From contig ONEX01000008.1 in the NCBI GenBank assembly GCA_900316955.1, positions 62,001 to 126,000 on the forward strand: a DNA stretch of 64,000 bases. Reading direction: 5' to 3'. Both the position numbers and the translations under genes were made by a program. Source of the DNA: an uncultured Bacteroidales bacterium. Lineage in GTDB: Bacteria; Bacteroidota; Bacteroidia; Bacteroidales; UBA932. Below the pieces are notes generated by a model. That model saw nothing but the letters and a program-made list of their open reading frames with translations, was not told the origin of the DNA and did no database searches. Below are positions 1 through 39,836 of this stretch, piece by piece; the stretch's first letter is position 1; each line of letters opens with the position of its first letter.

Positions 1-1239
1 ATCGTGAAGGGACGCCTGACCAAGATGAAGGATCCCGAGGTCCTGAGCCGGATGATGGCCGGCGGCCACCTTGTGACCGACCGCTGGGCGATCCTTGACA
101 TCCTGAACGGCATCGACCCGGACAAGTATCCGACCAGCATCACCCCGGAGACGGCCCCCGCCCCGAGCGAAGTCGCCGGCGTGGACTACAACTTCAAGAT
201 GCCGCAGGTGTGGAAGAGTTCCCTCGCCGTCGACTATTCCTTCCCGTTCTCCTTCCCGCTGACCATCAGCGCCGAGTACATCTTCAACAAGACCATCAAC
301 GGCGTGATGCTCACCAACTACAACATCCCGGAGGACAACGCGGGCTGGGTGACCTTCAACGGCCCCGACAAACGGCACATCTATCCGGCCGACTACCGGT
401 ACACCAACAAGGACGCCTACGTCCTGACCAACACGAACAAGGGCTGGGGCTCCATCGCCACCATCTCCCTGAACGCGCAGCCGCTGCAGAACCTCAGCAT
501 CACGGCGGCCTATACGCACACCGTGAGCAAGGAAATCACCGGTATGCCGGGCTCCAACGCCTCCGCCGCCTGGAAGTACATTCCTTCCGTGGACGGTCCT
601 AACTACAACATCCTGCACAACTCCTCCTACAACCTGCCCGACCGTCTGATGGCCTCCATCGCCTACACCGACGCCGCGCACAACCACTGGAGCCTGTTCT
701 ACGAGGGTCTCCGCTATTCGGGCAACAGCTATGTCTACGGCAACGACCTGAACGGCGACGGCAACGCCTACGACCTGATGTACATTCCCGCCAACAAGAG
801 CGAGATCCGCTTCATCGACGGGGACAACGAGAGCCGCTACTGGGAGTTCGCCGCGCAGGACGCCTACCTCACCAAGAACGCGGGCAAGTACGCCGAGGCC
901 TATGCCGTGAACCAGCCGATGCGCCACGTGTTCGACTTCCGCTTCGCCCACGACTTCATCGTGAAGGTGGGCAGCGTCCGCAACACCCTGCAGGTGAGCC
1001 TCGACGTCCAGAACGTCAGCAACCTATTCAACTCCCGCTGGGGCGTGACGAAGGGCTTCAACCCGGACGTCCCCAACGCCAGCGGCAACGCCAAGATCCT
1101 GAAGTACGAGCGGACGGATCCGGACGGCGTCCCCGTGTTCTCCACGATGGTGGATTCCGGCGTGAAGACCTGGGACTACCAGCACAGCCTCGGCAACTGC
1201 TGGTACATGCAGATCGGTGTCAAGTACATGTTCAACTAA
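1..1239 (+). CDS. TonB-dependent receptor, Oar-like, C-terminal part (5' end outside window)
   Basis: The reading frame is open from the first base, so this is the 3' part of a longer gene. The roughly 412 visible residues are an outer-membrane beta-barrel: alternating amphipathic strands rich in aromatic residues, and a terminal strand ending YMQIGVKYMFN, the aromatic C-terminus expected of a barrel inserted by BAM. The segment NDLNGDGNAYDLMYIP resembles the large Oar-type TonB-dependent receptors of Bacteroidota. The plug and signal peptide lie upstream of the window. The next gene starts 19 bp downstream and the following genes encode OB-fold lipoproteins and secreted nucleases, so the transported ligand may be related to nucleic acid. 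That substrate is inferred from context only. Confidence 0.85.
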   Translation: MVKGRLTKMKDPEVLSRMMAGGHLVTDRWAILDILNGIDPDKYPTSITPETAPAPSEVAGVDYNFKMPQVWKSSLAVDYSFPFSFPLTISAEYIFNKTINGVMLTNYNIPEDNAGWVTFNGPDKRHIYPADYRYTNKDAYVLTNTNKGWGSIATISLNAQPLQNLSITAAYTHTVSKEITGMPGSNASAAWKYIPSVDGPNYNILHNSSYNLPDRLMASIAYTDAAHNHWSLFYEGLRYSGNSYVYGNDLNGDGNAYDLMYIPANKSEIRFIDGDNESRYWEFAAQDAYLTKNAGKYAEAYAVNQPMRHVFDFRFAHDFIVKVGSVRNTLQVSLDVQNVSNLFNSRWGVTKGFNPDVPNASGNAKILKYERTDPDGVPVFSTMVDSGVKTWDYQHSLGNCWYMQIGVKYMFN

Positions 1240-1258
1240 CCCCCAAGCACGCGACGAT

Positions 1259-3136
1259 ATGAAACTCTACAGATTCTTCCTTTCCATCCTCGCCGGTGCG
1301 GCGCTCGCCGCCGGCTGCGTGCAGGAGCAGGTCATCTCCTCCCTGGACAGCTTCCAGGTGGAGAATTCCTATCTGAGCATCGCCCTGGAAGGCGGCATTG
1401 CCAATACCGCCGTCAAGGCGACGACCCAGTGGTCCTTCGACGACGCCACCGTTCCCGAGTGGCTCACCGTCACCCCGCGCAGCGGCGGTTCCGAGGTCAC
1501 CGGCCTCGTGTTCGCAGCTGACGCGAACACCGGTTCGTCCGCGCGGACGGCCAACCTCGTGGTGAACGTGGGCAGCCGCAAGCAGCGCTTCACCGTGATC
1601 CAGGCCGGACCGGGCGCCTATGAGGCTCCGATCTCCACGATCGCGGAAGTGATGGCGGGCAACGACGGCCAGACCTTCCGCATCCGCGGTACCGTGACCA
1701 CCATCGTCAATACGAATTACGGCAACCTGAATGTCCAGGACGAGACCGGCACCATCTATATCTATGGCCTGTTCAATGCGAAGGGGCAGTATCCGAAGGA
1801 CGCCGGTGGCTGGAACACCTTCGGGGTCGAATCGGGTGACATCATCACCGTCCAGGGTCCGCGCACCATGTATGGCAGCACCCTCGAGCTCGTGGACGCC
1901 ACCCTCATCAAGGTGGAGAAGTCCCTGATCAGCGTCGAGCCGGGCGAGATCGCGCTCGAGAGCGCCGAGGCAGGCACCTTCACCATCTCCGTGGTCTCCA
2001 AGGCCGACGGCATGGCGGTCCTCCCGTCCGAGAGCTGGATCAAGCTGACCGACATCGCGGCGGACGAAGGCGGCGCAGCCGTCTACAGCTTCGCCTACGA
2101 GGCCAACACCACCACGGCCGCCCGTACGGCCACCGTCGTGTTCAAGGCCACGAACTCCTCCAAGAGCGTTTCCGTGAGCCAGCCGGGCGTTCCGCCGACC
2201 GGACAGAGCATCACCGATATCGTGGCCCTGCCGGACAACTCCGGCGTGGAGACCCTCGAGTCCACCGTCGTGGCGAAGACCACCAAGGGCTTCGTGATTT
2301 CCGACGGCGCCACCGCCATCTATGCCTATGACAACGGCGCCAATGCCGTCGAGGTCGGCGACAAGGTGAAGGTCCTCGCGACCAAGACCACCTACAACGG
2401 CGTTCCCGAACTCGCCACCCTAACCTCCGTCGAGAAGACCGGCACCGCCGCCGTCGTGCACCCGGCGGTGAAGGACATCACGGCCGGCGCCCTCGACTAT
2501 GCGGCCACCGTCGCCGAGTACATCCAGTTCAAGGGTGTCCTCAAGAAGTCCGGCAATTACTACAACGTGGAAATCGACGGTGTGGACGCCGGCACCAAGC
2601 AGGGCAGCCTGGTGCAGCCGGTCGAGGCCGTCGGCGCCGATGCGTTCGATGGCAAGGCGATCACCGTGACCGGCTACTTCAACGGTCTCTCCGGCGGCGG
2701 CAAGTACATCAATGTCATCGTGACGAAGATCGTCGGGGCCGATGCCAAGGGCACGCTCTCGAACCCGTACACCCCGGCGGAAGCCGCCGACGCTGTGAAG
2801 GACCTGAAATGGACCTCCAACACGGACTATGAGTCCACGGACGAGGTGTATATGAAGGGCAAGATCTGCAAGATCGCCAACAAGGGCACCTATACCGAGG
2901 GCGGCACCTACGGCAACGCTTCCTTCTACCTGTCCGCCGACGGTACGGGTGACGGCGAGTTCTATGTGTTCCGCGCCCTCTATCTCGGCAACAAGAAGTT
3001 CGAGGCCGGCCAGACCGACATCAAGGTGGGCGACGAAGTCGTCGTCTACGGCAAGCTGATGAACTACCAGAACAACACGCCCGAGACCGTTTCCGGCAAG
3101 GCCTACCTCTATTCCCTGAACGGTAAAACCGAATAA
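1259..3136 (+). CDS. Lipoprotein with BACON domains and several OB-fold-like modules
   Basis: A 625-residue predicted lipoprotein. The start MKLYRFFLSILAGAALAAGC gives a lipobox (AAGC) and was preferred to a codon 42 bases upstream that lies inside the preceding gene. Visible order: BACON-like beta-sandwich (about 30-125), an OB-fold-like domain (about 130-225, with LNVQDETGTIYIYG), a second BACON-like domain (about 230-315), an OB-like domain (about 325-405), a further OB-like segment (about 410-495), and a C-terminal module starting GTLSNPYTP that matches the modules repeated six times in the next gene (DUF6359-like). OB folds often bind nucleic acid or oligosaccharide. Together with the two nuclease genes downstream this suggests a surface nucleic-acid-binding role, which is inference. 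Confidence 0.75.
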   Translation: MKLYRFFLSILAGAALAAGCVQEQVISSLDSFQVENSYLSIALEGGIANTAVKATTQWSFDDATVPEWLTVTPRSGGSEVTGLVFAADANTGSSARTANLVVNVGSRKQRFTVIQAGPGAYEAPISTIAEVMAGNDGQTFRIRGTVTTIVNTNYGNLNVQDETGTIYIYGLFNAKGQYPKDAGGWNTFGVESGDIITVQGPRTMYGSTLELVDATLIKVEKSLISVEPGEIALESAEAGTFTISVVSKADGMAVLPSESWIKLTDIAADEGGAAVYSFAYEANTTTAARTATVVFKATNSSKSVSVSQPGVPPTGQSITDIVALPDNSGVETLESTVVAKTTKGFVISDGATAIYAYDNGANAVEVGDKVKVLATKTTYNGVPELATLTSVEKTGTAAVVHPAVKDITAGALDYAATVAEYIQFKGVLKKSGNYYNVEIDGVDAGTKQGSLVQPVEAVGADAFDGKAITVTGYFNGLSGGGKYINVIVTKIVGADAKGTLSNPYTPAEAADAVKDLKWTSNTDYESTDEVYMKGKICKIANKGTYTEGGTYGNASFYLSADGTGDGEFYVFRALYLGNKKFEAGQTDIKVGDEVVVYGKLMNYQNNTPETVSGKAYLYSLNGKTE

Positions 3137-3139
3137 CCA

Positions 3140-6100
3140 ATGCTTCGCAATATGAAACTCAGAACACGTATGTTCGCCCTTCTGGGCCTGGCGGCCGCTC
3201 TCGTCGGCTGCCGGCCGGAAGAGGCCGATATCATGCTCCCGGAGATCAAGATCGCCGGACCGGCGCTCACCTTCGACGCGGAGACCAAGCTGGCCTCGTG
3301 CCCGCTGGACATGCAGCTGGTGAACATTCCGCTGACCATCACCGCGAACCGCGACTGGGTCGCCGACATCAACTGGGACGCCGACGAGGTTCCGTGGATC
3401 GCCGTGACGCCCGAATCCGGTGTCGCTTCGGACCAGCCCCAGTCGGTGACCCTCACCGTCCTGAACAACGCCGGCTACAACCGCAACAAGCGGGTGAAGT
3501 TCTCCATCGGGTATGACTACAAGACCATCGACATCACCCAGACCGGCGAGCGCGGCGAGGAAATCATCGGCACGCTCGACAACCCGCTCACCGTGGCGGG
3601 CGCCATCAAGTACGTGAAGAGCCTGGGCGCCGACGTCCAGAGTTCCTCCGGCGTGTATGTCAAGGGTAAGATCTCCCGGATCGACGAAGGCAACAACTTC
3701 GCCGCCAGCGGCACGTACGGCAACGCCACCTTCTACATCTCCGACGATGGCGCCACGACCTCCGACCAGTTCTACTGCTACCGCGTGCTGTACCTCGGCA
3801 ACAAGAAGTGGACCTCCAAGGATCCGGATGTCAAGGTGGGCGACGACGTAATCATCTACGGCCACGTGGTCAACTACAAGGGCAACACGCCCGAGACCGT
3901 GCAGGGTACCGCCTTTGTGTACGAGCACAACGGCGTGAACCGCGGCACCGACGAAGGCGGCGGTGGCGGCACCGAAGGCACGCCCGCCGGCACCGGTACC
4001 GTGGACGATCCGTACAACGTGGCGGCGGCCCGGGCGGCGGTGAAGGACCTCACCTGGACCAGCAACACCGAGTACGAGAAGACGGGCACCGTCTATGTGA
4101 AAGGCAAGATCTCCCGGATCGCCGACAACGGCACCTTCGGGCAGAGCGGCACCTTCGGCAACGCGACCTTCTACATCAACGACGACGGCGCGGAGGGCGC
4201 TGAACTCTACGCCTACCGCATCCTGTACCTCGGCAACAAGAAGTACACGTCCGGCACCGACATCAAGGTGGGCGACGAGGTGGTCATCTGCGGCGAGCTG
4301 ATGAACTACCGCGGCAACACGCCCGAAACCGTATCCAACGCGGCCTACCTCTACTCGCTGAACGGCGAGGGCGGTGGCGGCGACACGCCTCCGGGCCCGG
4401 GCGGCGATCCCGCCGGCACCGGCACCGCGACCGACCCGTACAACGTGGCGGCCGCCCGCAATGCGGTCAAGGATTTCACCTGGACCAGCAACACCGAATA
4501 CGACAAGACGGGCACCGTGTATGTGAAGGGCAAGATCTCCAAGATCGCCGACAACGGCACCTTCGCCCAGAGCGGCACCTTCGGCAACGCGACCTTCTAC
4601 ATCTCCGACGACGGCAAGGAGGGCAACGAGCTCTACTGCTACCGCATCCTCTATCTCGGCAACGTGAAGTACACCTCCGGCACCGACATCAAGGTGGGTG
4701 ACGAGGTGGTCGTCTGCGGCGAACTGATGAACTACCGGGGCAACACACCCGAGACCGTGGCCAACGCGGCCTACCTCTATTCGCTGAACGAGTCCGGCGG
4801 CGGTGGCGGCGGCGGGGATACGCCCGGCGGCGCTTCCGGCTCCGGCACCCTGGCCGATCCGTACAATCCGCTCGGCGCTATCAACGCCGTGAAGGGCCTG
4901 ACCTGGACTTCCAACACGGAGTATGAGAGCACGGGTGAAGTGTACGTGAAGGGCAAGATCTCCCGCATCGCCTCCGGTGGCACCTACACCGAGGGTGGCA
5001 CTTTCGGCAACGCTTCCTTCTATATTTCTGAGGATGGCGCGGAGAAGGACGAGTTCTACTGCTTCCGCGTCCTGTACCTCGGCAACAAGAAGTTCGAGGC
5101 GGGCCAGACCGATATCAAGGTGGGCGACGAAGTCGTCATCTACGGCAAGCTGATGAACTACCGGAACAACACCCCGGAGACGGTCTCCGGCAGCGCATAC
5201 CTCTATTCTCTGAATGACAGCGGCAGCGGTGGAGGCGGCGACACGCCCGGCGGCGGCAACGGCTCCGGCACGCTGGCCGATCCGTACGACGCGCTCGGCG
5301 CCATCAACGCCGTGAAGGGCCTGACCTGGACCAGCAACACCGTCTACGACAAGACGGACAAGGTGTATGTGAAGGGCAAGATCTCCCGCATCGCCAACAA
5401 CGGCACCTATGGCCAGAGCGGCACCTTTGGCAACGCCTCCTACTGGATTTCCGTCGACGGTACCGAGAAGGACGAGTTCCAGATCTATCGCAGCCTGTAT
5501 TTCAACGGCGAGAAGTACACCGAAGGCACCGACATCAAGGTCGGTGACGAAGTGGTCGTGTACGGCTCCCTGATGAACTACAAGGGCAATACGCCGGAGA
5601 CGGTGGCGAACGAGAACTGGCTGTACTCGCTGAACGGCAAGACTGACGGCAGCGGCGGTGGCGGCGGCGACACGCCCTCCGGCAACGGCTCCGGCACCCT
5701 GGCCGATCCTTACACCGCGCTCGGTGCCATCGACGCCGTGAAAGACCTGACCTGGACCAGCAACACCGTCTATGACAAGACGGACAAGGTGTATGTGAAG
5801 GGCAAGATTTCCCGGATCGCCAACAACGGCACCTATGTGGGTGGCGGCACCTTCGGCAACGCTTCCTACTGGATCTCCGCCGACGGTACCGAGAAGGATG
5901 AGTTCCAGATCTTCCGCAGCCTGTATTTCAATGGCGAAAAGTACACCTCCGGCACCGACATCCAGGTGGGTGACGAAGTGATCGTGTACGGCGCCTTGAT
6001 GAACTACAAGGGCAACACACCGGAAACGGTGGCGAACGAGAACTGGCTGTACTCGCTGAACGGCAAGACTGACGGCAGCGGTGGTGGCGGTGGCGACACG

Positions 6101-6523
6101 CCGGCCGGCAGCTCGCTCACCATCGAGACGAATGACGCCCTGTCCTGGGGAGAGGAGACGGACGGCACCTACGGAGCCGGCTTCAGCGTCACCACCCAGG
6201 GGATGAAACTGGGTTTCTACAAGCATGCGGCGGGTCTCGCCGTGCCGGCCCCGAACGCCTCTCACATCCGCGTCTATAAGAATGCCGCCTTCAGCATCGC
6301 CTCGGCGGAAGGGAAGAAAATCAAGAAGATCGTCATCGGCTGCGCGCCCAATGCCGGCAACACCTCCTACTGCTTCGACATGGCAGGCCTGGAGGGCGGC
6401 GCTTCCGCGACCTGCGACAAATCGGCCCTGACCGTTACGTGGACCGGTTCCGCCTCCAAGGTGGTCCTCCAGGCCAACAACGGACAAGTCCGCGTAGAAA
6501 AAATTACCGTGGAATTCGAATAA
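3140..6523 (+). CDS. Giant lipoprotein with six tandem OB-fold-like (DUF6359-like) modules
   Basis: A 1127-residue predicted lipoprotein (lipobox Cys24; an alternative ATG at 3152 would give a 20-residue signal). After a BACON-like domain (about 40-135) come six homologous modules of about 115-120 residues, each beginning G(T/S)GT..DPY and containing VYVKGKISRI, YGNA or FGNA, YLGNKKY, D(I/V)KVGDEV and NYKGNTPETV, and mostly ending LYSLNG. Modules 2-6 are separated by Gly-rich linkers (for example GGGGGDTP). A different beta-rich domain of about 135 residues closes the protein. The modules look like OB folds of the DUF6359 type. The gene begins 3 bp after the preceding stop and sits upstream of two nuclease genes. 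A surface scaffold or capture protein for nucleic acid is a plausible but untested role. Confidence 0.75.
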   Translation: MLRNMKLRTRMFALLGLAAALVGCRPEEADIMLPEIKIAGPALTFDAETKLASCPLDMQLVNIPLTITANRDWVADINWDADEVPWIAVTPESGVASDQPQSVTLTVLNNAGYNRNKRVKFSIGYDYKTIDITQTGERGEEIIGTLDNPLTVAGAIKYVKSLGADVQSSSGVYVKGKISRIDEGNNFAASGTYGNATFYISDDGATTSDQFYCYRVLYLGNKKWTSKDPDVKVGDDVIIYGHVVNYKGNTPETVQGTAFVYEHNGVNRGTDEGGGGGTEGTPAGTGTVDDPYNVAAARAAVKDLTWTSNTEYEKTGTVYVKGKISRIADNGTFGQSGTFGNATFYINDDGAEGAELYAYRILYLGNKKYTSGTDIKVGDEVVICGELMNYRGNTPETVSNAAYLYSLNGEGGGGDTPPGPGGDPAGTGTATDPYNVAAARNAVKDFTWTSNTEYDKTGTVYVKGKISKIADNGTFAQSGTFGNATFYISDDGKEGNELYCYRILYLGNVKYTSGTDIKVGDEVVVCGELMNYRGNTPETVANAAYLYSLNESGGGGGGGDTPGGASGSGTLADPYNPLGAINAVKGLTWTSNTEYESTGEVYVKGKISRIASGGTYTEGGTFGNASFYISEDGAEKDEFYCFRVLYLGNKKFEAGQTDIKVGDEVVIYGKLMNYRNNTPETVSGSAYLYSLNDSGSGGGGDTPGGGNGSGTLADPYDALGAINAVKGLTWTSNTVYDKTDKVYVKGKISRIANNGTYGQSGTFGNASYWISVDGTEKDEFQIYRSLYFNGEKYTEGTDIKVGDEVVVYGSLMNYKGNTPETVANENWLYSLNGKTDGSGGGGGDTPSGNGSGTLADPYTALGAIDAVKDLTWTSNTVYDKTDKVYVKGKISRIANNGTYVGGGTFGNASYWISADGTEKDEFQIFRSLYFNGEKYTSGTDIQVGDEVIVYGALMNYKGNTPETVANENWLYSLNGKTDGSGGGGGDTPAGSSLTIETNDALSWGEETDGTYGAGFSVTTQGMKLGFYKHAAGLAVPAPNASHIRVYKNAAFSIASAEGKKIKKIVIGCAPNAGNTSYCFDMAGLEGGASATCDKSALTVTWTGSASKVVLQANNGQVRVEKITVEFE
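3569..6073 (+). repeat. Six tandem in-frame OB-module repeats, about 423-426 bp period
   Basis: Module starts fall near 3569, 3989, 4415, 4838, 5261 and 5687, so modules 2 to 6 recur every 423-426 bp. A seventh related copy ends the preceding gene (about 2749-3127). The last two copies are the most alike, which suggests recent expansion by unequal recombination. Confidence 0.85.
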
Positions 6524-6535
6524 GGCAGGGTGACT

Positions 6536-7696
6536 ATGCGAACGAGACTACATACTGTTTTCGGCGCGGTCCTGCTCGGGATCCTCTCGCTGGGGTTTGT
6601 CTCCTGCGAGGAGGAGCCCGTCATTCCCGATCCGGATTTCGTCCTCGTGCGTGATGCCGTTTCCAGCCGGAAAGGCAGCCAGTTCCTGGAGGTGTATGCC
6701 CAAGGGAAATGGACCATCACGTGCGACGCGGACTGGATCCGGATCACCCCGGACAAGGGCAGGGGGAACAACAGGGCCATCGCGCTGCAATATGACGCCA
6801 ATACCGAGGAAGGGCCCCGCCAGGCCGATATCCGGCTCCAGGCGCAGGAGAAGACCCTCACGGTCACCCTGCACCAGAACGCCCCTTCCGACGATCCCGA
6901 ACCCGAGATCAACGGCGGTTCCTCCACCCGCAAGGGCTGGATGGAACTGCCCGAGACCCGGTCGGACGACGGCCTGAATATTTTCTGGCACACCATGACG
7001 GTCGGAAACTACACGGGCCGCAACTACTCCTTCTACTGGGATTACTCCAAACTGGTCTCCCACTGGGTGGCCTATCCGCTCAACAACGGCCTGCGCGCCA
7101 GCGGCTCCCGCTCCGACGCCTGGGGCCTCGACCCGCTCGTGCCGGCTTCCCGTCAGCCCAACGTCACCAGCACCTTCCGGGGCGGCTGGGCGCGCGGACA
7201 CCAGCTCCCGTCGGCCGACCGCCTGAGCTACAACGCCAACGTCCAGACCTTCTACGGCACCAACATGACGCCCCAGAACTACAACTTCAACGGCGAAATC
7301 TGGGCCCGTCTGGAGGACAAGGTCCGCGGCTGGTCCGGCCGGTGCGACACCCTGTACGTGGTGACCGGCTGCGTGGTGGACGGCAACGTCAGCTACACGA
7401 CGGACATCGACGGCAAGAAGGTCGCGATTCCGAACGCTTACTACAAGGCGGTTCTCAGCTACAGCAAGTCGGCGTCCGAGAACGGCGGCTACCGCGGCTG
7501 CGCCGTCTATCTGGAGCACACCCACAACCCGAACGAGACCGTGGCCCGCAACCATTCTTCCGTGATGTCCATCAAGGATCTGGAAGCGAAGACCGGGGTG
7601 AACTTCTTCGTGAACCTGCCGGCCGCCATCGGCGCCGAAGCCGCCGCGGCCGTGGAAGCGGAGAATCCGAACTCGGTCAGCTGGTGGTGGAACTAA
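6536..7696 (+). CDS. Secreted DNA/RNA non-specific endonuclease (NUC1 family) lipoprotein
   Basis: A 386-residue predicted lipoprotein. The start chosen is the ATG at 6536, preceded by AGGCAGGG; a GTG two codons upstream is possible. The signal peptide ends at lipobox Cys24. Residues about 35-120 form a BACON-like domain and about 140-386 the nuclease. The NUC1 hallmark is seen as WARGHQLPSADR (His222), the place of the family DRGH motif, with Ala where Asp is usual. TNMTPQNYNFNGEIW supplies the conserved downstream metal-binding Asn segment. In the Serratia nuclease family the His is the general base and the Asn binds Mg2+. It should hydrolyse DNA and RNA at the cell surface. It lies between the OB-fold lipoproteins and a second nuclease in a gapless operon. 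Confidence 0.85.
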   Translation: MRTRLHTVFGAVLLGILSLGFVSCEEEPVIPDPDFVLVRDAVSSRKGSQFLEVYAQGKWTITCDADWIRITPDKGRGNNRAIALQYDANTEEGPRQADIRLQAQEKTLTVTLHQNAPSDDPEPEINGGSSTRKGWMELPETRSDDGLNIFWHTMTVGNYTGRNYSFYWDYSKLVSHWVAYPLNNGLRASGSRSDAWGLDPLVPASRQPNVTSTFRGGWARGHQLPSADRLSYNANVQTFYGTNMTPQNYNFNGEIWARLEDKVRGWSGRCDTLYVVTGCVVDGNVSYTTDIDGKKVAIPNAYYKAVLSYSKSASENGGYRGCAVYLEHTHNPNETVARNHSSVMSIKDLEAKTGVNFFVNLPAAIGAEAAAAVEAENPNSVSWWWN

Positions 7697-7708
7697 AACG
7701 ACGAGACG

Positions 7709-8779
7709 ATGAAAAGATTCATAACCATCCTTGCGTTCCTGCTGGCGCTGACGCCGGCCTTCGCCCAGAAGGGCGGAACGAAGAACTATGTCATCGGGTT
7801 CTACAACCTGGAGAACCTGTTCGACACCTACCATGACGAGGGAAAGAACGACTACGAGTACCTCCCCGACGGCGCGAACGAATGGACCGACTTCAAGTAC
7901 CAGAAGAAGCTCGCCAACATGGCCCGGGTCATCCGGGCGATGCGGGACGAGAACAAGGCCTATCACGCCATCCTCGGCGTCTCCGAGATCGAGAACCGTC
8001 ACGTCCTGGAGGACCTGGTGGCCGAGCCGGCCATCGCCGACGCGCACTACCAGATCGTCCATTACGACGGTCCGGACCGCCGCGGCGTGGACGTGGCCCT
8101 GTTCTACCGTCCGGAGCTGTTCACGGTCCTGGAATCCAAGTCCATCCCCTTCAACTTCGACAGCGAGCTCGAATTCGGCATGACCAAGGAGGAGCAGGAC
8201 GCCTTCCGCACCCGTGACCTCCTGATGGTCCGCGGTCTGCTGGGCGGCGAAATGTTCGCTTTCTTCGTGGCGCACCTTCCTTCCCGCCTGGGCGAGAAGA
8301 GCGGCGCCCTCCGTTCCCGTGGCGGCCAGATGATGTACGAGGAGAGCGTCCGCCTGATGCAGGAGTATCCCGGCATCAAGATCGTGGCGATGGGCGACAT
8401 GAACGACAACCCCACCGACGACAGTATGGCCGTGTGGATGCACGGCCGCGAGAAGGTCGAGGACGTGGGGCCGATGGATTTCTTCTCCCCGTTCCTGTCG
8501 ATGCTCAAGGCCGGGTACAGCTCCCTGTACTATCGCGGCGAGAACAACATCTACGACATCCTCGTGGTCAACGAACCGCTCGTGAACGCGCCGAAGGGCA
8601 CGCTCAAGATCCAGCCGATCGTGAAGAAGAAGTACTATGGACGCATCTTCAACCCGCCGTTTATGGTCCAGCAGGAAGGCCAGTATGCCGGCCAGCCGCT
8701 GCGCACCTTCTCGAACGGCGCCTTCGTGGGCGGCTACAGCGACCACTTCCCGACCTATATTGTAGTAAGTAACAAGTAA
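7709..8779 (+). CDS. Secreted endonuclease/exonuclease/phosphatase-family protein
   Basis: A 356-residue protein with a cleavable signal peptide (MKRFITILAFLLALTPAFAQ). The fold signature is complete: FYNLENLFDT (Asn), GVSEIENR (metal-binding Glu), DRRGVDVALFYRPE, FFVAHLPSR (His), MGDMNDNPTD (Asp and Asn) and the final GYSDHFPTYIVV (Asp-His pair). These are the conserved positions of the DNase I-like metallo-phosphoesterase superfamily. Bacteroidota members of this group are annotated as nucleases; a phosphatase on another substrate cannot be excluded. It begins 12 bp after the NUC1 nuclease gene and 6 bp before a TonB-dependent receptor gene, supporting joint work on an extracellular phosphodiester polymer. 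Confidence 0.85.
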   Translation: MKRFITILAFLLALTPAFAQKGGTKNYVIGFYNLENLFDTYHDEGKNDYEYLPDGANEWTDFKYQKKLANMARVIRAMRDENKAYHAILGVSEIENRHVLEDLVAEPAIADAHYQIVHYDGPDRRGVDVALFYRPELFTVLESKSIPFNFDSELEFGMTKEEQDAFRTRDLLMVRGLLGGEMFAFFVAHLPSRLGEKSGALRSRGGQMMYEESVRLMQEYPGIKIVAMGDMNDNPTDDSMAVWMHGREKVEDVGPMDFFSPFLSMLKAGYSSLYYRGENNIYDILVVNEPLVNAPKGTLKIQPIVKKKYYGRIFNPPFMVQQEGQYAGQPLRTFSNGAFVGGYSDHFPTYIVVSNK

Positions 8780-8785
8780 CCGGAT

Positions 8786-11680
8786 ATGATCAAGAAACTA
8801 ACCTTGGCGACCGCCGCACTTCTCCTGGCGCTGGGCCTTTCCGCCCAGACGTTCACGGGAGGCGTGCGCGGCACGGTCGTCAGCCGTACCGACCGGTCCC
8901 CGGTCCCCGGTGCGGTCCTCGTGCTGTACCAGGGTACGGCCGAAGTGGCCACGGTGACTTCCGGCGACGACGGCCGCTTCCTCATCGAGGACCTGGACAA
9001 CGGCATCTACGACCTGGTGATCCAGGCCCCGGACTACCTGGAAACGCGTGTCAACGTCACCGTCAACGACGGATATGTCAAGAACATGTTCAACCTCTCC
9101 CTGACCCGCGGCACGGTCGTCAGCGAGGTGGACGTGGACAACCTCGTGGAGTTTGACATGGACGACACCGGCTACGGTGACTCTCCGACGGTCCTGTTCG
9201 GCCAGAATGACGTGTTCAACAACATGGCGGGCTACAACTTCAGCTCCGTCCGCTACCGCGTGCGCGGTTACTCCTCCGAGTCGCAGGACGTGTACCTGGC
9301 CGGCGTCAAGATGAACGACGCCATCACCGGGTACTCCCCGTTCTCCCTGTGGAGCGGCCTCAACGAGGCCACCCGCACGAAGTACACCGTCAACGGCGCC
9401 GAAATCTCCGACTACGGCATCGGCGGCTACAACGGCCTGACGAACCTGCCTGTCAACGCCCTGTCCGTCCGCAAGGGATGGCGGGGGAGCGTGCTCACCA
9501 ACAGCCAGCTGTACCGGCTGCGCCTGATGATGACCTACGCCTCCGGCCCCCGGGACGACGGCTGGTCCTACGCGTTCAACGTGTCGGCCCGCCTGGGCGG
9601 CAACGACTGGGTGAAGGGCGTGTACTACCGTTCCTTCGCCTATTATGCCGCGGTCGAGAAGCAGTTCAACGACGCGCACAAGCTCGGCCTGGTCTTCATG
9701 GGCACGCCCGGGCAGCGTGGCGCCGCGAACGCGTCCACCCAGGAGGTCTATGACCTCATGGGCGACAATATGTACAACTCCAACTGGGGTTACCAGAACG
9801 GCAAGGTGCGCAACGCCCGCGTCCGCAAGACGCACGAGCCCATCGCCATCCTGAAGTACGACTTCACGCCCGGCCCCAAGTTCAACGCCGCCGCGACGGT
9901 CCTGTACCGCTTCGGCAAGAACGGCTACACCGCCCTCGACTGGTATGACGCCCAGGATCCGCGTCCGGACTATTACCGGAACCTCCCGAGCTACTTCTAT
10001 ATGGAGGACGACGACTACAACCGGATGAACGGGATGAAGGCGGCCTGGGCCGAGGAAGTCTGGCGGAACGACCTTCCGCAGTACGCCCACATCAACTGGG
10101 ACCGCCTGTACGCCGTGAACAAGCTGAATGTCGAGGACGGCGAGCGCCGCTCCAAGTACGCGCTGCAGGAACGCCGCGTGGACCAGCAGGACCTGAACTT
10201 CGCCCTCAACTTCAAGTGGCGTCCGTCCCGGATCTTCACCCTCACCGGCGGCGCCGATGCGAAGGTGAACCGGACCGAGTACTACCAGAAGATGGACGAC
10301 CTCCTCGGCGGCGAGTACTTCTACAACATGGACTCCTTCGCCGAGCGCGACTATGCGGCCTTCCCGTATATGACCCAGAACGACCTGGATTACTGGATGA
10401 AGAACGGTTCCGCGCAGAAGATCCGCGTCGGGGACAAGTACGGCTATGACTACTATGCCAACGTCCGCAAGTGGAACGGCTGGCTGTCCGGCAAGCTGAA
10501 TGTCGGCAACTTCGAGATGGCCGTCGGCGGCCGCGTGGGCCAGACCGCCTTCTGGCGGCAGGGCCTCAACCGCAAGGGCCTGTTCCCGGGCGTGGATGAC
10601 AACGGGAAGCCGATCTACATCGACGGCCGGGAAGTGACCACCTATGACGAGAACGGCGACCCGATCACGTCCTACGGCAAGTCCAAGGTGGCGCGGTTCC
10701 TGACCTACGCCGGCAAGGTGAACCTCAACTACGTCCTTCCCGGCGGCCACCGGTTCTATGCCAATGCGGGCTACTTCAACGACGCGCCCACCTTCAGCCA
10801 GTCGTTCATGTCCCCGCGTACGCGCAACCAGCTGGCTCCGGAGCTGACGACCGTCAAGACCCTCACCGGCGACATCAACTACCAGGTGTCCTCCAACGGC
10901 TACAACTTCCGGATCACGGGTTACTACACCGACATCATGGACCAGGCCAAGGTGATGAGCTTCTATGACGACGGCCAGAACTCCTTCACCAACTTCGCGC
11001 TGACCGGCATCGACGAGCGGCACGTGGGCATGGAGATGGGCTTCAAGATCCCGACCGACTTCCCGAACCTCGCCCTCCAGGGCGTGATCGGCTACGGCGA
11101 GTACTACTACACCTCCAACCCGAAGATGTACCAGACCATCGACAACAACGCCTCCATCGTGGAAGGCACCTACGGTGTCGTGGTCCCGTACTGGAAGAGC
11201 CATCCCGACACGGACGGCACGATCGTCCGCCACTATGTGGAATCCACCCCGCAGCTCGCCGTGAGCCTGGGCCTGGCGTGGAACTGGAACTACTGGTTCG
11301 TGGATGCCGACATCGACTACTTCGGCCATTCCTACCTGTCGATGAACCCGCTCTACCGCACGGACTACGCGACGGCCGGCCCGGACCGCGAGGTCACGCC
11401 GTTCGAGGTCGCGTACATGTGCGCGCAGGAAAAGTTCGACCCGCAGTGGCTCCTGAACCTGTCCGTGGGCAAGTCCTGGTACATCCAGCGGAAGTACCAG
11501 CTGGGCTTCTCCCTGAATGCGAAGAACCTGCTGAACAACACCTGGGTGAAGACCGGCGGTTACGAGCAGACCCGCATCGTGAAGAACTCCGTGTCGAAGG
11601 CGATGTTCTACCGCTTCGACTCCAAGTACTTCTACATGAGCGGTTTCAATTACATGTTGAACATCTATTTCCGATTCTAG
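8786..11680 (+). CDS. TonB-dependent receptor with N-terminal carboxypeptidase-regulatory-like domain
   Basis: A 964-residue outer-membrane receptor. The signal peptide ends LALGLSAQ. Residues about 25-110 are a carboxypeptidase-regulatory-like beta-sandwich (GVRGTVVSRTDRSPVPGAVL). A plug-type domain follows (FSSVRYRVRGYSSESQDVYLAG), then a large beta-barrel with aromatic-rich strands ending NYMLNIYFRF. It lacks the standard SusC GxxxVDG plug pattern, and no SusD partner is adjacent. A DUF5689 lipoprotein follows after 3 bp and may serve as its surface partner. It is the second TonB receptor of the operon. Import of the products of the two upstream nucleases is the simplest context-based role, though unproven. 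Confidence 0.85.
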   Translation: MIKKLTLATAALLLALGLSAQTFTGGVRGTVVSRTDRSPVPGAVLVLYQGTAEVATVTSGDDGRFLIEDLDNGIYDLVIQAPDYLETRVNVTVNDGYVKNMFNLSLTRGTVVSEVDVDNLVEFDMDDTGYGDSPTVLFGQNDVFNNMAGYNFSSVRYRVRGYSSESQDVYLAGVKMNDAITGYSPFSLWSGLNEATRTKYTVNGAEISDYGIGGYNGLTNLPVNALSVRKGWRGSVLTNSQLYRLRLMMTYASGPRDDGWSYAFNVSARLGGNDWVKGVYYRSFAYYAAVEKQFNDAHKLGLVFMGTPGQRGAANASTQEVYDLMGDNMYNSNWGYQNGKVRNARVRKTHEPIAILKYDFTPGPKFNAAATVLYRFGKNGYTALDWYDAQDPRPDYYRNLPSYFYMEDDDYNRMNGMKAAWAEEVWRNDLPQYAHINWDRLYAVNKLNVEDGERRSKYALQERRVDQQDLNFALNFKWRPSRIFTLTGGADAKVNRTEYYQKMDDLLGGEYFYNMDSFAERDYAAFPYMTQNDLDYWMKNGSAQKIRVGDKYGYDYYANVRKWNGWLSGKLNVGNFEMAVGGRVGQTAFWRQGLNRKGLFPGVDDNGKPIYIDGREVTTYDENGDPITSYGKSKVARFLTYAGKVNLNYVLPGGHRFYANAGYFNDAPTFSQSFMSPRTRNQLAPELTTVKTLTGDINYQVSSNGYNFRITGYYTDIMDQAKVMSFYDDGQNSFTNFALTGIDERHVGMEMGFKIPTDFPNLALQGVIGYGEYYYTSNPKMYQTIDNNASIVEGTYGVVVPYWKSHPDTDGTIVRHYVESTPQLAVSLGLAWNWNYWFVDADIDYFGHSYLSMNPLYRTDYATAGPDREVTPFEVAYMCAQEKFDPQWLLNLSVGKSWYIQRKYQLGFSLNAKNLLNNTWVKTGGYEQTRIVKNSVSKAMFYRFDSKYFYMSGFNYMLNIYFRF

Positions 11681-11683
11681 GCC

Positions 11684-12781
11684 ATGAGAAAGCGTATCCT
11701 GATTGTTGCTGCGGCAACCCTCGCCCTCGCTGCCTGCGAGGAGTGGCAGCCGGTGTTCACCGGCGAGTACGGCGACGTATACATGTATGAGGCCGCGGAT
11801 CTGAAAGTGACGTCCACCATCGCGGAACTCAAGGAACTGTATGCCAAGCACGGCGTCCTGAAGATCCAGGACGACGACATGGTCATCGCCGGCAAGGTCA
11901 TCTCCGACGACCATTCCGGCAATATCTACCGGGAACTGTACATCCAGGACGAGACCGGCGTGATCAGCGTCAAGATCGGCCTCTCCTCCCTGTACAGCGA
12001 CTTCAAGCTGGGCCAGACGGTCTATGTCAAGTGCAGTGGCCTGACCATCGGCCAGTACAACGGCATGCCCCAGCTGGGCATCGAGGATCCTACCGGCGAG
12101 TACGAGACTTCCTACCTGGACAACCGATACCTGATCGACGCCCACGTGGTCCGCGGCGCCTGGGGCGACCCCGTCCCCCCGCTCCGGGTTACGGAAGCCG
12201 AGCTCGCGGCGGCCCTCAAGGAGGGCTATACCAACCCGCTCTGGGGGCAGCTGGTGACGCTGGAGGACCTGCAGTACGGCGCCAAACCCGAGTACAACAC
12301 CGAGGCGTACAAGCGCATCTTCATCCTCCTCTACATCGACCCGTACAAGGACAAGAAGGCCTCCACCAACCGTGTCTTCTGCTCCACCGAGACCTTCGGC
12401 GTGACCACCTGGGCCATGTCCAAGAACAAGTTCCTGGAGTACCTGGATGCCGGCTGTTTCGACCGTTGCTCCAGCTCGGACAAGTCGATGGACGACATCT
12501 TCGACGAGATGACGGGCCTGACGGTGAAGCAGACCATCCGCGAGAACGCGACGGCCATCACCACCAGCCACTACTTCCACCTGCCGGACGGCCAGGCGGT
12601 CCAGATCCGCACCAGCGGCTACGCGAAGTTCGCGGACACGGAGATCGATCCGGCCATCCTCGGCGATCCCAAGGGGAAGGATGACGGCGCGCTCTGCTCC
12701 GCCACGGGCATCCTGACCGTGTACAACGGGGCGGCGCAGCTGGCCCTGGTCGATGAAAACAGCGTAAAGATCCAGAAGTAA
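11684..12781 (+). CDS. DUF5689-type OB-fold lipoprotein
   Basis: A 365-residue predicted lipoprotein (MRKRILIVAAATLALAAC). The N-terminal half carries the DUF5689 pattern: a TIAELKELY helix, then an OB-like strand set with AGKVISDDHSGNIYRELYIQDETG, LGQTVYVKCSGLTIG and a GMPQLGIED closing strand. The C-terminal half has a second beta-rich region with TSGYAKFADTEI and TGILTVYNG near the end. DUF5689 proteins commonly accompany TonB receptors and secreted hydrolases in Bacteroidota. Spacing is 3 bp from the receptor, and the stop overlaps the next start (TAATG), so it is translationally linked to both neighbours. Its ligand is unknown. Confidence 0.75.
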   Translation: MRKRILIVAAATLALAACEEWQPVFTGEYGDVYMYEAADLKVTSTIAELKELYAKHGVLKIQDDDMVIAGKVISDDHSGNIYRELYIQDETGVISVKIGLSSLYSDFKLGQTVYVKCSGLTIGQYNGMPQLGIEDPTGEYETSYLDNRYLIDAHVVRGAWGDPVPPLRVTEAELAAALKEGYTNPLWGQLVTLEDLQYGAKPEYNTEAYKRIFILLYIDPYKDKKASTNRVFCSTETFGVTTWAMSKNKFLEYLDAGCFDRCSSSDKSMDDIFDEMTGLTVKQTIRENATAITTSHYFHLPDGQAVQIRTSGYAKFADTEIDPAILGDPKGKDDGALCSATGILTVYNGAAQLALVDENSVKIQK

Positions 12782-14778
12782 TGACGAGAAAAATCCTGAC
12801 TATTGCAGCGATGGCATTGACGATGACCGCCTGCGGCCCGAAGGCCGGAAAGATTTTCAGTGAGGAGTGGAACACCCCGTATGGGACGGCTCCGTTCAGC
12901 AAGATCACGGAGGCGGACTACATGCCCGCCATCCTGGCCGGTATCGAGGCCCAGAAGGCCGAAATCCGTGCGATCGTCGAGAATCCGGACGCTCCCACGT
13001 TCGAGAACACGATTGCGGCCTACGAGCTTTCCGGCGACCTGCTGTCCAAGGTGACCGGCGTCTTCTTCAACCTCTCCGAATCGGACTCCACCCCCACGAT
13101 CCAGCAGATCGAGGAGGAGGTGACTCCGATCATCACGGAGGCCTCCGACGCCATCTTCATGGACAGCGGCCTTTTCGCCCGCGTGAAGGCCGTGTACGAG
13201 AACATGGACGGCCTGGACCGCGAGCAGCAGATGGTCGTGAAGAAGCTCTATGACCGCTTCATCCGCAACGGCGTCGGCCTGGACGCGGAGAAGAAGGCCC
13301 GCTTCGCGGAGATCAACAGCCGTCTCGCCGTCCTCAGCCAGAAGTTCGGACAGAACCTCCTGGCGGAGAACAACGCTTTCCGGGACGAAATCGGCGTGAC
13401 CGTGTCGGCCTATCCGACCTTCATGGCCACCTGCGAGGACCGCGCGCTCCGGGAGAAGGCCTTCAAGGCCTATTCCAGCCGCGGCAACCACGGTGACGAG
13501 CACGACAACAACGCCATCGTCCTGGAGATCATGAAGCTCCGGACGGAGAAGGCGAACCTGCTGGGTTACAAGACCTCCGCCGAATATCTCCTCGCCGACA
13601 AGATGGCCGGCAACCCGGAGACGGTGGACGCCTTCCTGCAGCCCATCATGGACGCGTCGATGCGCAAGGCCAAGGAAGAGATCGCCGACATGGAAGCGGT
13701 CGCCGGCCACAAGATCGAGCCCTGGGACTGGTTCTACTACGCGGAGAAGGTCCGCGCCCTGAAGTACGACCTGGACGAATCCGTCACCGGCCCGTACTTC
13801 ACGGCGGACAGTGTATCGAAAGGCGTTTTCGCCGCCGCGGAAAAGGTCTATGGCATCCACATCGAGCCCGCGCCCGAGGTGGAGGTCTACAATGATGTGA
13901 CGAAGGCTTACAAGCTCACGGACGCCGACGGTTCCCTCCTCGGCATCTTCTACCAGGACTGGTTCTCCCGCGACACCAAGCGGGGCGGCGCCTGGATGAA
14001 CAACTTCCGCGAGCAGTACGTCAAGGACGGCCAGGATGTCCGCCCGATCATCGTGAATGTCTGCAACTTCCCGCCCGCCACGGAGGACGCGCCGTCGATG
14101 CTTTCCATCGACAACGTCCAGACCGCCTTCCACGAGTTCGGCCACGCCCTGCACGGCTTCCTGACGAAGTGCCGGTACGAGGACGTGTCCGGTACCGCCG
14201 TGACCCGCGATTTCGTGGAGATGTTCTCCCAGTTCAACGAGAACTGGGCCTTCGTCCCCGAGATCCTGGCCGTGTATGCCAAGGACTACCGCACCGGCGA
14301 GCCCATCCCGGCGGAACTCGTGGAGAAGATCGGCAAGTCGCTGAAGTTCAACCAGGGCTTCACGACGGGCGAGCTCTGCGCCGCGTCCATCCTGGACATG
14401 AAGTGGCATGAGCTGACGGCCGAGCAGCTGGAGAAGTTCACCGACGCCCAGTCCATCCGCGACTTCGAGACGAAGGTCTGCGGCGAGATGGGCCTCATCG
14501 ACGAGATCATCCCGCGCTACCGGACGACCTACTTCAACCACATCTTCAACAGCGGCTACAGCGCCGGCTACTACAGCTACCTGTGGTCCGAGGTCCTGGA
14601 CGTGGACGCCTGGGAGAAGTTCGTCGCCGACGGTGTCTTCAACCCCGCCACGGCGAAGGCCTTCCGCCAGACCTTCCTCGAGAAGGGCGGTTCCGAAGAG
14701 CCGATGACCCTCTTCCGCCAGTTCCGCGGCGCCGATCCCGATCCGGCCGCCCTCCTCCGCGCCCGCGGCCTGGAGTAA
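12781..14778 (+). CDS. M3-family metallopeptidase (dipeptidyl carboxypeptidase/oligopeptidase-like) lipoprotein
   Basis: A 665-residue member of the thimet oligopeptidase family. The zinc site is H451-E-F-G-H455 (AFHEFGHALHGF), with Glu480 in VTRDFVEMFSQFNENW as third ligand, the Dcp-type arrangement. The start MTRKILTIAAMALTMTAC is a lipoprotein signal, so the enzyme is predicted to be membrane anchored, whereas E. coli Dcp and OpdA are soluble. Length and the C-terminal substrate segment (FNSGYSAGYYSYLWSEVLDVD) match full-length family members. It overlaps the preceding stop by one base and a strong hairpin follows, so it appears to be the last gene of the operon. It would cleave short oligopeptides, perhaps from protein attached to the scavenged material. 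Confidence 0.9.
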   Translation: MTRKILTIAAMALTMTACGPKAGKIFSEEWNTPYGTAPFSKITEADYMPAILAGIEAQKAEIRAIVENPDAPTFENTIAAYELSGDLLSKVTGVFFNLSESDSTPTIQQIEEEVTPIITEASDAIFMDSGLFARVKAVYENMDGLDREQQMVVKKLYDRFIRNGVGLDAEKKARFAEINSRLAVLSQKFGQNLLAENNAFRDEIGVTVSAYPTFMATCEDRALREKAFKAYSSRGNHGDEHDNNAIVLEIMKLRTEKANLLGYKTSAEYLLADKMAGNPETVDAFLQPIMDASMRKAKEEIADMEAVAGHKIEPWDWFYYAEKVRALKYDLDESVTGPYFTADSVSKGVFAAAEKVYGIHIEPAPEVEVYNDVTKAYKLTDADGSLLGIFYQDWFSRDTKRGGAWMNNFREQYVKDGQDVRPIIVNVCNFPPATEDAPSMLSIDNVQTAFHEFGHALHGFLTKCRYEDVSGTAVTRDFVEMFSQFNENWAFVPEILAVYAKDYRTGEPIPAELVEKIGKSLKFNQGFTTGELCAASILDMKWHELTAEQLEKFTDAQSIRDFETKVCGEMGLIDEIIPRYRTTYFNHIFNSGYSAGYYSYLWSEVLDVDAWEKFVADGVFNPATAKAFRQTFLEKGGSEEPMTLFRQFRGADPDPAALLRARGLE

Positions 14779-14858: not shown

Positions 14859-15875
14859 TTACTTGATGTAGCTCGTGATGACCTTCATGCCGCCCTCGGC
14901 GGGCTTGAAAGTGACGCCGGTGGAGGAGGCGGGGACGAGGACCGTCTCGCCCTGGCGGAGGTCGACGACGTGGCCCTTGGTGGGGCCGCGGCGGCCTTCG
15001 GCGTCATAGACGGGCTCGGCGTCCGTCAGAGAGCCGTGGCCGGAGAGGCACATCACCACGAGGAAGGAGTCGGTGTCCTCCAGGTTCTTCGTGACGGCCT
15101 GGTCCAGGTCGTAGATGCTGGTGGTGAAGTACTTGCAGGAAACGACTTCGTTCTCCGCGTCCTTGACGGGGGTGTAGGGGGTGCGGTACTCCGGATACAC
15201 CTTGTAGTCGATGGCATCCTTCGCGAGCTCCGTGTGGAGCTGGCGCGGCTTGCCGTCCAGGCCCAGCCGGCCGTAGTCGTAGATGCGGTAGGTGATGTCG
15301 GAAGTCTGCTGGATCTCGGCGATGAAGCAGCCGCCGCAGATGGCGTGGATGCGCCCGGCCGGGAGGAAGAACACGTCGCCGGGATGCACGTCGTGGCGGG
15401 CCAGCACCTCGGTGATGGTGCCGTCGGCCACGCGCTTCTCATACTCCTCGGGGGTGATTTCCTGCGTCATTCCGGCAAGCAGGTGCGCGCCCGGCTCCGC
15501 ATCGACCACATACCACATCTCGGTCTTCCCCTTGGAGCCGTTGTGCCGCACGGCGGCCAGCTCGTCGTTCGGATGGACCTGCACGGACAGGTCGGAGAGG
15601 GCGTCGATGAACTTGATCAGCAGCGGGAACTCGTCGCCGGTGTTGGCGTAGACATGCTCGCCCACGAGGCGGCCCTTGTACTCTTTCACGAGGTCCGCGA
15701 TGGTGCGGCCCTTGAGGGCGCCGTTCGCGACCACGGACTCGTTCCCTTTCACGCCGGACAGTTCCCAGCTTTCGCCGATATGCTCCTGTTCGGTCTCCAC
15801 GCCCTTGTACGGGGCAATCTTTTCGCCACCCCAGACGATGGTCTTGAAGATGGGCTCGAATTTCAGCGGATACAT
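14859..15875 (-). CDS. manA: Class I mannose-6-phosphate isomerase
   Basis: A 338-residue type I phosphomannose isomerase, cytoplasmic with no signal. It interconverts mannose 6-phosphate and fructose 6-phosphate. Visible signatures are the N-terminal FKTIVWGGEKI, LSVQVHPNDELA (metal-binding Gln and His), KTEMWYVV (Glu) and LPAGRIHAICGG (His), the four zinc ligands of the cupin family. Length suits the short bacterial form. It is the last gene of the minus-strand mannosidase operon, 3 bp after the ROK kinase, where it would pass kinase-made mannose 6-phosphate into glycolysis. Confidence 0.92.
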   Translation of the reverse strand: MYPLKFEPIFKTIVWGGEKIAPYKGVETEQEHIGESWELSGVKGNESVVANGALKGRTIADLVKEYKGRLVGEHVYANTGDEFPLLIKFIDALSDLSVQVHPNDELAAVRHNGSKGKTEMWYVVDAEPGAHLLAGMTQEITPEEYEKRVADGTITEVLARHDVHPGDVFFLPAGRIHAICGGCFIAEIQQTSDITYRIYDYGRLGLDGKPRQLHTELAKDAIDYKVYPEYRTPYTPVKDAENEVVSCKYFTTSIYDLDQAVTKNLEDTDSFLVVMCLSGHGSLTDAEPVYDAEGRRGPTKGHVVDLRQGETVLVPASSTGVTFKPAEGGMKVITSYIK

Positions 15876-39300: not shown

Positions 39301-39836
39301 ATGGACTTGGAACCGCGCATCACGATACGGGATGCGCCGCCCGCGCCCGTGGAGGACTGGCTGATGGATACGCCCGCCACCTTGCCGTTCAGGCCGTTGA
39401 CGAAGGAACCCACCGGACTCACCGTCTCCACTTTGGCCTGCTGGACATTGTAGGAGAGGGATTTTTCCTCCTTGCGGATACCCATGGCGGTGACCACCGT
39501 CGCGTTGAGCGCGATGTTGTCCGACGCCAGGGTGACATCGATGACCGAACGGCCTCCGATCTGCTCGACGGCGTCTTTCTGGCCGATGTAGGAGAAGCGG
39601 AGGGCCTCCGCCTACGCCGGGACGGTGATCGAATAGTGACCGTCCAGGTCGGTGATGGCACCTACCGAGGTATCTCCCTCCACGACGACGCTGGCGCCGA
39701 TGAGCGGTTCTCCGAAGTCATCGGTGACGGTACCCGTGATGGTCCGGTTCTGGGCCAGGGCGAGTCCGCCAGCGATGAACAGCCCCGACAGGGCCGCAAG
39801 GGTCCTGGTCAAGACTTTCTTTAGTTGGAAACTCAT
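36321..39836 (-). pseudogene. SusC-type TonB-dependent transporter fused to a C-terminal OmpA domain; one in-frame TAG at codon 75
   Basis: Read through one stop codon, this is a 1171-position SusC protein. Codons 1-74 give the signal peptide and start of the carboxypeptidase-regulatory-like domain (TITGTVTDDFGEPLIGASV). TAG follows (39614-39612), and the same frame then continues ALRFSYIGQKDAVEQIGG, TVVTAMGIRKEEKSL, the plug (GKVAGVSISQSSTGAGGASR, LYVIDGIPMQS) and the barrel. The barrel closes at RSLGFAVKMRF. About 49 residues of Pro/Ala and VVEKVVEKEVVKEVV linker follow, then a 104-residue OmpA-family domain (IIGKAEIRPEEALKLGRIV, GYADSGTGTDQIN, ELSRQRAAKVVDML). TAG is used as an ordinary stop by several neighbouring genes, so nonsense mutation or sequence error is likelier than recoding. 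A restart at Met114 would lack a signal peptide. Confidence 0.8.

Follow-up and report, generated by a model that had tools for sequence, protein, structure and literature searches.

A nuclease-bearing Bacteroidales operon as a putative TonB-driven importer of DNA

Genes of the operon

The 64,000-nucleotide stretch analysed here ("the window"; contig ONEX01000008.1 of an uncultured Bacteroidales bacterium) opens within an operon that codes for two nucleases, a set of lipoproteins and two receptor-like proteins, one of which has a counterpart among the transformation proteins of Riemerella anatipestifer (Table 1). By open reading frame (ORF) calling, all genes of the operon lie on the + strand, with gaps of 3-19 nt for the chosen starts. 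Its first gene starts 2,024 nt before the window, its last, an M3 peptidase gene, stops at 14778, and the gene beyond is encoded on the opposite strand (14859-15875). A first-pass annotation made from the sequence alone had recognized a gapless operon with these gene families at 1..12781 and proposed that it captures, cuts and imports nucleic acids. ORF calling and Pfam bear out the operon and its families, which score 2e-35 (Endonuclease_NS, the NUC1 protein), 1e-85 (Exo_endo_phos_3, the EEP protein) and 1.5e-41 (DUF5689); the operon reaches beyond 12781, since the M3 gene overlaps the stop codon of the DUF5689 gene. Three lipoproteins had been counted, and lipoprotein 1, lipoprotein 2 and the DUF5689 protein stand as such; the total is higher, because NUC1 and the M3 peptidase, like the DUF5689 protein, also carry lipobox-like signals. 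The EEP nuclease has a plain signal peptide and is probably located in the periplasm.

The catalytic domain of NUC1 and the region around its RGH motif match Protein Data Bank (PDB) entry 2o3b, Anabaena NucA (phmmer E 8e-18), and a phmmer search of the PDB returned no true match for the EEP protein. The M3 peptidase gene also follows the operon in two further genomes, G008 and G714. Elsewhere in the window, a CarboxypepD_reg_2 receptor match lies on the minus strand (39492-39740), its frame interrupted by one TAG.

Table 1. Coordinates of the operon genes and parts in the window.
Feature	Position	Strand	Basis
3' part of an Oar-like TonB-dependent receptor, 1087 aa	1..1239 (whole gene L009:7976-11239)	+	CarbopepD_reg_2 match at G000:C19:60069
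Lipoprotein 1 (lipobox LAAGC) with BACON domains and OB-like modules	1259..3136	+	ORF, Pfam, sequence
OB-like repeat module within lipoprotein 1	2759..3127	+	Repeat alignment; best PDB match of the profile is the single-strand binding protein 1se8, E 0.036
Lipoprotein 2 (lipobox LVGC) with six OB-like repeat modules at about 3557-6034	3140..6523	+	ORF, Pfam, alignment
NUC1 (DNA/RNA non-specific endonuclease) lipoprotein, N-terminal BACON; possible GTG start at 6530	6536..7696	+	Pfam, RGH motif aligned with 2o3b
EEP-family nuclease (PF19580) with a signal peptide and without a lipobox	7709..8779	+	Pfam, sequence
Second receptor: TonB-dependent-transporter-like barrel, 964 aa, CarboxypepD_reg N-domain; ortholog of R. 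anatipestifer RA0C_RS04915	8786..11680	+	Pfam, homology, model
DUF5689 lipoprotein, predicted OB folds; RA0C_RS04920 counterpart by place and domain	11684..12781	+	Pfam, gene order, model
M3-family peptidyl-dipeptidase lipoprotein, final operon gene	12781..14778	+	ORF, Pfam

A conserved core of barrel and DUF5689 lipoprotein

The operon had been credited with two TonB-dependent receptors. The second of these qualifies by its predicted fold: neither the barrel models nor the SusC models of Pfam and NCBIfam match it at E 0.1, its Pfam matches are only to CarboxypepD_reg-type and similar small domains, and the matches of its profile to PDB sequences are confined to the N-terminal domain. Yet a structural model (pLDDT 67, pTM 0.67) retrieves TonB transporters in Foldseek, with the best E of 6.8e-24 to PqqU, followed by YncD, Fiu, FecA and BtuB, and predicts a plugged beta-barrel of the TonB-transporter fold. 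The two receptors are also unequal, a point that the first-pass annotation did not bring out. The one at 8786-11680 (hereafter the barrel) is the conserved core, and an Oar gene directly upstream was observed only in the window operon and in G008, of the same genus, but not in G681, likewise of that genus; among 20 further loci an Oar match occurs only once, a few genes downstream (L245).

At E 0.001 the barrel has matches in 200 of the 247 genomes searched in the order, in 201 of the 345 genomes of a phylum sample and in 59/60 genomes of a family that contains Riemerella, tallies which include weak paralogs but in which many matches are full-length at 30-60% identity. When the barrel of R. 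anatipestifer CCUG25054 (locus L116) was searched in the window genome, it returned the window barrel only (E 7.6e-63 plus 7e-33). The barrel of a further genome, G636, shares 93% identity with the one of CCUG25054, and both genomes have the gene order ComEC, two genes, EEP, barrel, DUF5689, which fits the numbering RA0C_RS04895 to RS04920. Chryseobacterium barrels show identities of 60-66%, with one at 44% and one at 54%, in agreement with the 65.9% given in PMC8459023. Judged by these sequence comparisons, the window barrel is an ortholog of RA0C_RS04915. G636 belongs to the same class as the window organism and to a different order; Riemerella is placed by GTDB in the Bacteroidia, order Flavobacteriales, and the window organism thus comes from another order of the class. 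Barrel orthologs therefore occur in orders beyond that of Riemerella.

The core gene order is found again in the majority of the genomes examined. Linkage was counted at loci with room (at least 500 nt downstream or at least 1200 nt upstream of the barrel) after removal of 38 narrow loci for which a wider copy existed; three distant paralog loci (L209-L211) were kept. Named and unnamed loci were counted apart, because the same species may be in both, and 63/64 named loci held a barrel of at least 600 aa. By profile search, DUF5689 comes next after the barrel in 98/101 unnamed loci (it is missing in L046, L077 and L203) and in 63/63 named ones; in the window the two genes are 3 nt apart. An EEP gene lies upstream of the barrel in 84/105 unnamed loci, 62 of them divergent and 22 co-directional, and in 60/62 named loci, all divergent. 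At one locus that has no adjoining EEP gene (genome G195, L111:11445-12917), Endonuclease I (PF04231) fills the EEP slot upstream of the barrel-DUF5689 pair.

The co-directional arrangement found in the window goes along with NUC1. Among unnamed loci with 2600 nt of upstream room, NUC1 is present in 21/21 co-directional and 0/15 divergent cases. A midpoint-rooted tree was built from 111 barrels, those of the window and of Riemerella among them; it omits L046, L209-L211, every odd-numbered locus in the range L067-L095, the 38 narrow copies and the named loci except for 14. In this tree the 22 co-directional loci, each of which has NUC1, group as a single clade (support 1.0). At 15 of 16 co-directional loci that were fetched, a protein related to the window lipoproteins is encoded upstream of NUC1, and the sixteenth locus starts at a contig edge. 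Ten such upstream proteins were scanned: seven matched either an OB-type family or DUF5689 at E 0.001 (in some cases under Pfam's own cut-off), and the other three only BACON, Fn3 or F5/8-type matches. In the lineage of the window, the module has apparently been assembled once into one operon, together with NUC1 and an additional, putatively binding lipoprotein. Searches of the open-access literature, judged by search listings, did not find a published description of this operon form.

The DUF5689 protein is predicted to consist of OB folds. The best 50 of 590 Foldseek matches of its model (pLDDT 72, pTM 0.69) are all OB-fold proteins by title and known fold, and among the matches listed the neighbours are mostly nucleic-acid binders, including CST/POT1, HIN-200, Teb1, RPA and lysyl-tRNA synthetase. 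These neighbours suggest that the protein may bind nucleic acid.

In lipoproteins 1 and 2, seven repeat modules of about 110-120 aa each align, one in the former and six in the latter; six of the seven are 50-57% identical to the first module. Pfam matches the OB-fold family tRNA_anti-codon on whole lipoprotein 2 (8e-14), although no single stretch passes alone, and the seven repeats as a profile find their best PDB match, a weak one, in a single-strand binding protein (Table 1). The earlier count of about eleven OB modules is arrived at only if three divergent stretches of lipoprotein 1, recognized by eye, and DUF5689 are counted along with these seven. What is conserved beside the barrel is the DUF5689 lipoprotein; the OB arrays, like the Oar receptor, are extras particular to the lineage. 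The proposal that the OB modules take the place of SusD in a Sus-like system was therefore rejected: the position next to the receptor is held by DUF5689, and no SusD is present among the eight proteins scanned.

Proposed DNA import and its alternatives

The link that the first-pass annotation missed is the one to transformation. In R. anatipestifer the CarboxypepD_reg outer-membrane protein RA0C_RS04915 adjoins RA0C_RS04920, which contains DUF5689 and DUF5017, and markerless deletion of either gene is reported to yield no transformants, each thus being essential for natural transformation (PMC8459023). The same paper describes homologs as widespread in Bacteroidetes, yet RS04915 as found only in Flavobacteriaceae. 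Mutants in tonBA and tonBB also show reduced transformation, an effect that for tonBB the authors ascribe to iron (PMC8383284). The Riemerella screen left open which protein makes single strands and offered ComEC as one possibility (PMC8459023). At L096 of G636, a genome that probably belongs to R. anatipestifer, the EEP gene adjoining the barrel would by position be RS04910, a candidate nuclease for the published transformation model.

On balance we consider it probable that the operon forms a TonB-driven outer-membrane importer of DNA or DNA pieces, armed with nucleases and binding lipoproteins. The OB and DUF5689 lipoproteins would bind extracellular DNA at the cell surface, where NUC1 would cut it; the barrel would move DNA or its fragments inward across the outer membrane with energy from TonB, and the EEP nuclease might trim them in the periplasm. 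Two nuclease families, predicted OB folds and the Riemerella transformation pair support DNA or RNA as the substrate, as first proposed, and import by a TonB-type receptor is likewise supported. The original nucleic-acid idea was thus largely right in substance, and an armed version of a transformation-linked DNA-uptake module fits the locus better than a Sus analogue.

Several observations weigh against DNA import. The fold matches of the barrel are small-ligand transporters, and the plug region of its model is of low confidence. Identity to the Riemerella counterparts is about 30% for the barrel and about 26% for the DUF5689 protein; the latter has no DUF5017 match at E 0.1, compared to 4e-5 in Riemerella, and because it lacks this C-terminal part, it is filed as a DUF5689 protein and not as an RS04920 ortholog. 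The Foldseek scores of the DUF5689 model are weak (best E 1e-3, low TM-scores) at a pLDDT of 72, and profile comparison found no homology between the OB repeats and DUF5689. BACON domains are named for carbohydrate binding, and the M3 peptidase fits no DNA pathway. A lack of nuclease genes in orthologous operons had been named as evidence that would speak against nucleic acids; for the most part they are there, an EEP gene next to the barrel being absent from 21 of the 105 unnamed loci. Finally, Flavobacterium johnsoniae is said to carry homologs of the pair (PMC8459023) and was not transformable as tested, with the authors considering a pilus-type system possible (PMC7965970).

The strongest alternative, though in our estimation an unlikely one, is that the locus serves natural transformation here too, with intact strands passing through the barrel, NUC1 and EEP acting as entry nucleases, and ComEC and DprA finishing the process. 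The essential role of the Riemerella counterparts argues for it, as does the finding of ComEC and DprA in the window's genome and in five other genomes searched. Two exported nucleases, however, would destroy donor DNA, and the ComEC of the window's genome (L182:1150-2226) measures 358 aa and consists of the Competence domain only, without the DUF4131 (OB) domain. In G008 it is similar (373 aa), and in G224 (L185), where no gene of the nuclease-barrel operon is missing, it is split by a transposase-like ORF, recognized by eye. In a DUF4131 scan of four ComEC proteins besides that of Riemerella, those of G165 and Riemerella contained both DUF4131 and Competence.

Within the family the barrel is present (at least 300 bits) in 27/79 genomes. 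With a ComEC open frame of at least 600 aa counted as long, and G653, G684 and G699 (broken or fragment ComEC) and three genomes with no ComEC match left out, 43 of 73 scorable genomes fall below this length, a class that includes G224, whose split gene has DUF4131. The barrel occurs in 17/43 short-ComEC and 9/30 long-ComEC genomes; there is no association (Fisher p 0.46), and its presence thus does not track ComEC length, which counts against the transformation reading. ComEC length was considered as proof against transformation and given up as such: according to PMC6299819, 6 of 51 competent strains have a Competence-only ComEC, though lengths over all 51 range from 417 to 872 aa. These strains speak for transformation and against scavenging, and three NUC1-operon genomes with a long ComEC likewise speak against scavenging. 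That the operon persists where ComEC is reduced leans towards scavenging, and the scavenging of nutrients such as nucleotides or phosphate is the likelier end use here; the shortness of ComEC is only a hint.

It is improbable that the system, while linked to nucleic acids, has another main job, such as defence against DNA traps or turnover of biofilm DNA, and that its receptor takes in nothing larger than nucleosides, phosphate, bound metal or similar small products. DNA of the host or of a biofilm would also be cleared by a surface nuclease together with binding lipoproteins, and the small-ligand transporters among the barrel's fold matches suit this view; yet deletion of the Riemerella pair abolishes transformation, from which it follows, if the effect is a direct one, that the DNA itself docks at these proteins or passes through them. 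Least credible is a glycan or glycoprotein system of the Sus type in which the nucleases are incidental and BACON, OB and M3 parts serve mucin or protein: the BACON domains, the M3 peptidase and the serial BACON and Fn3 matches of some lipoproteins in the lineage would suit it, but no SusD or glycosidase was found among eight proteins scanned at E 0.1 (Oar in part only), and nucleases adjoin the barrel in most loci.

How DNA passes the outer membrane of Bacteroidota is unsettled, and the conserved neighbourhood adds a candidate, the adjacent EEP gene. The results widen the known range of the barrel to further orders of the class and reveal a lineage that couples it to a second, putatively surface-exposed nuclease. 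We put forward only tentatively, and with more doubt than belief, that many Bacteroidia, instead of using a competence pilus, import DNA by a TonB-driven transporter of the outer membrane that works together with an OB-fold lipoprotein at the surface and a nuclease devoted to the task, and that one lineage rebuilt this importer once into a nuclease-armed operon which turns DNA uptake into feeding. Together, these findings open DNA import, whether it serves nutrition or the gain of genes, to direct tests in laboratory Bacteroidota.

Comparison with known systems

The closest known relative of the proposed DNA importer is the RA0C_RS04915-RS04920 pair, which shares with it an orthologous barrel, a DUF5689 lipoprotein encoded directly downstream and an EEP gene next to the barrel. 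In contrast to that pair, the window operon has its EEP gene in co-directional orientation and adds NUC1, BACON/OB lipoproteins, Oar and M3; its DUF5689 protein lacks DUF5017, and the ComEC gene of the genome is short and located elsewhere. In SusCD-type loci, too, a single operon codes for surface lipoproteins, for enzymes and for a receptor of the TonB type, but the operon described here has no SusD, its receptor matches no SusC model, and nucleases stand in place of glycosidases. With the NUC1/Endonuclease_NS nucleases (2o3b; Serratia type) the NUC1 protein shares the catalytic domain and the RGH motif region; unlike them, it is a lipoprotein with a BACON domain, encoded in an operon with a putative importer. 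The DNA-entry nucleases EndA and NucA of Gram-positive competence systems are surface nucleases coupled to DNA uptake, and they operate in another envelope and with another transporter, such that the likeness is one of analogy only.
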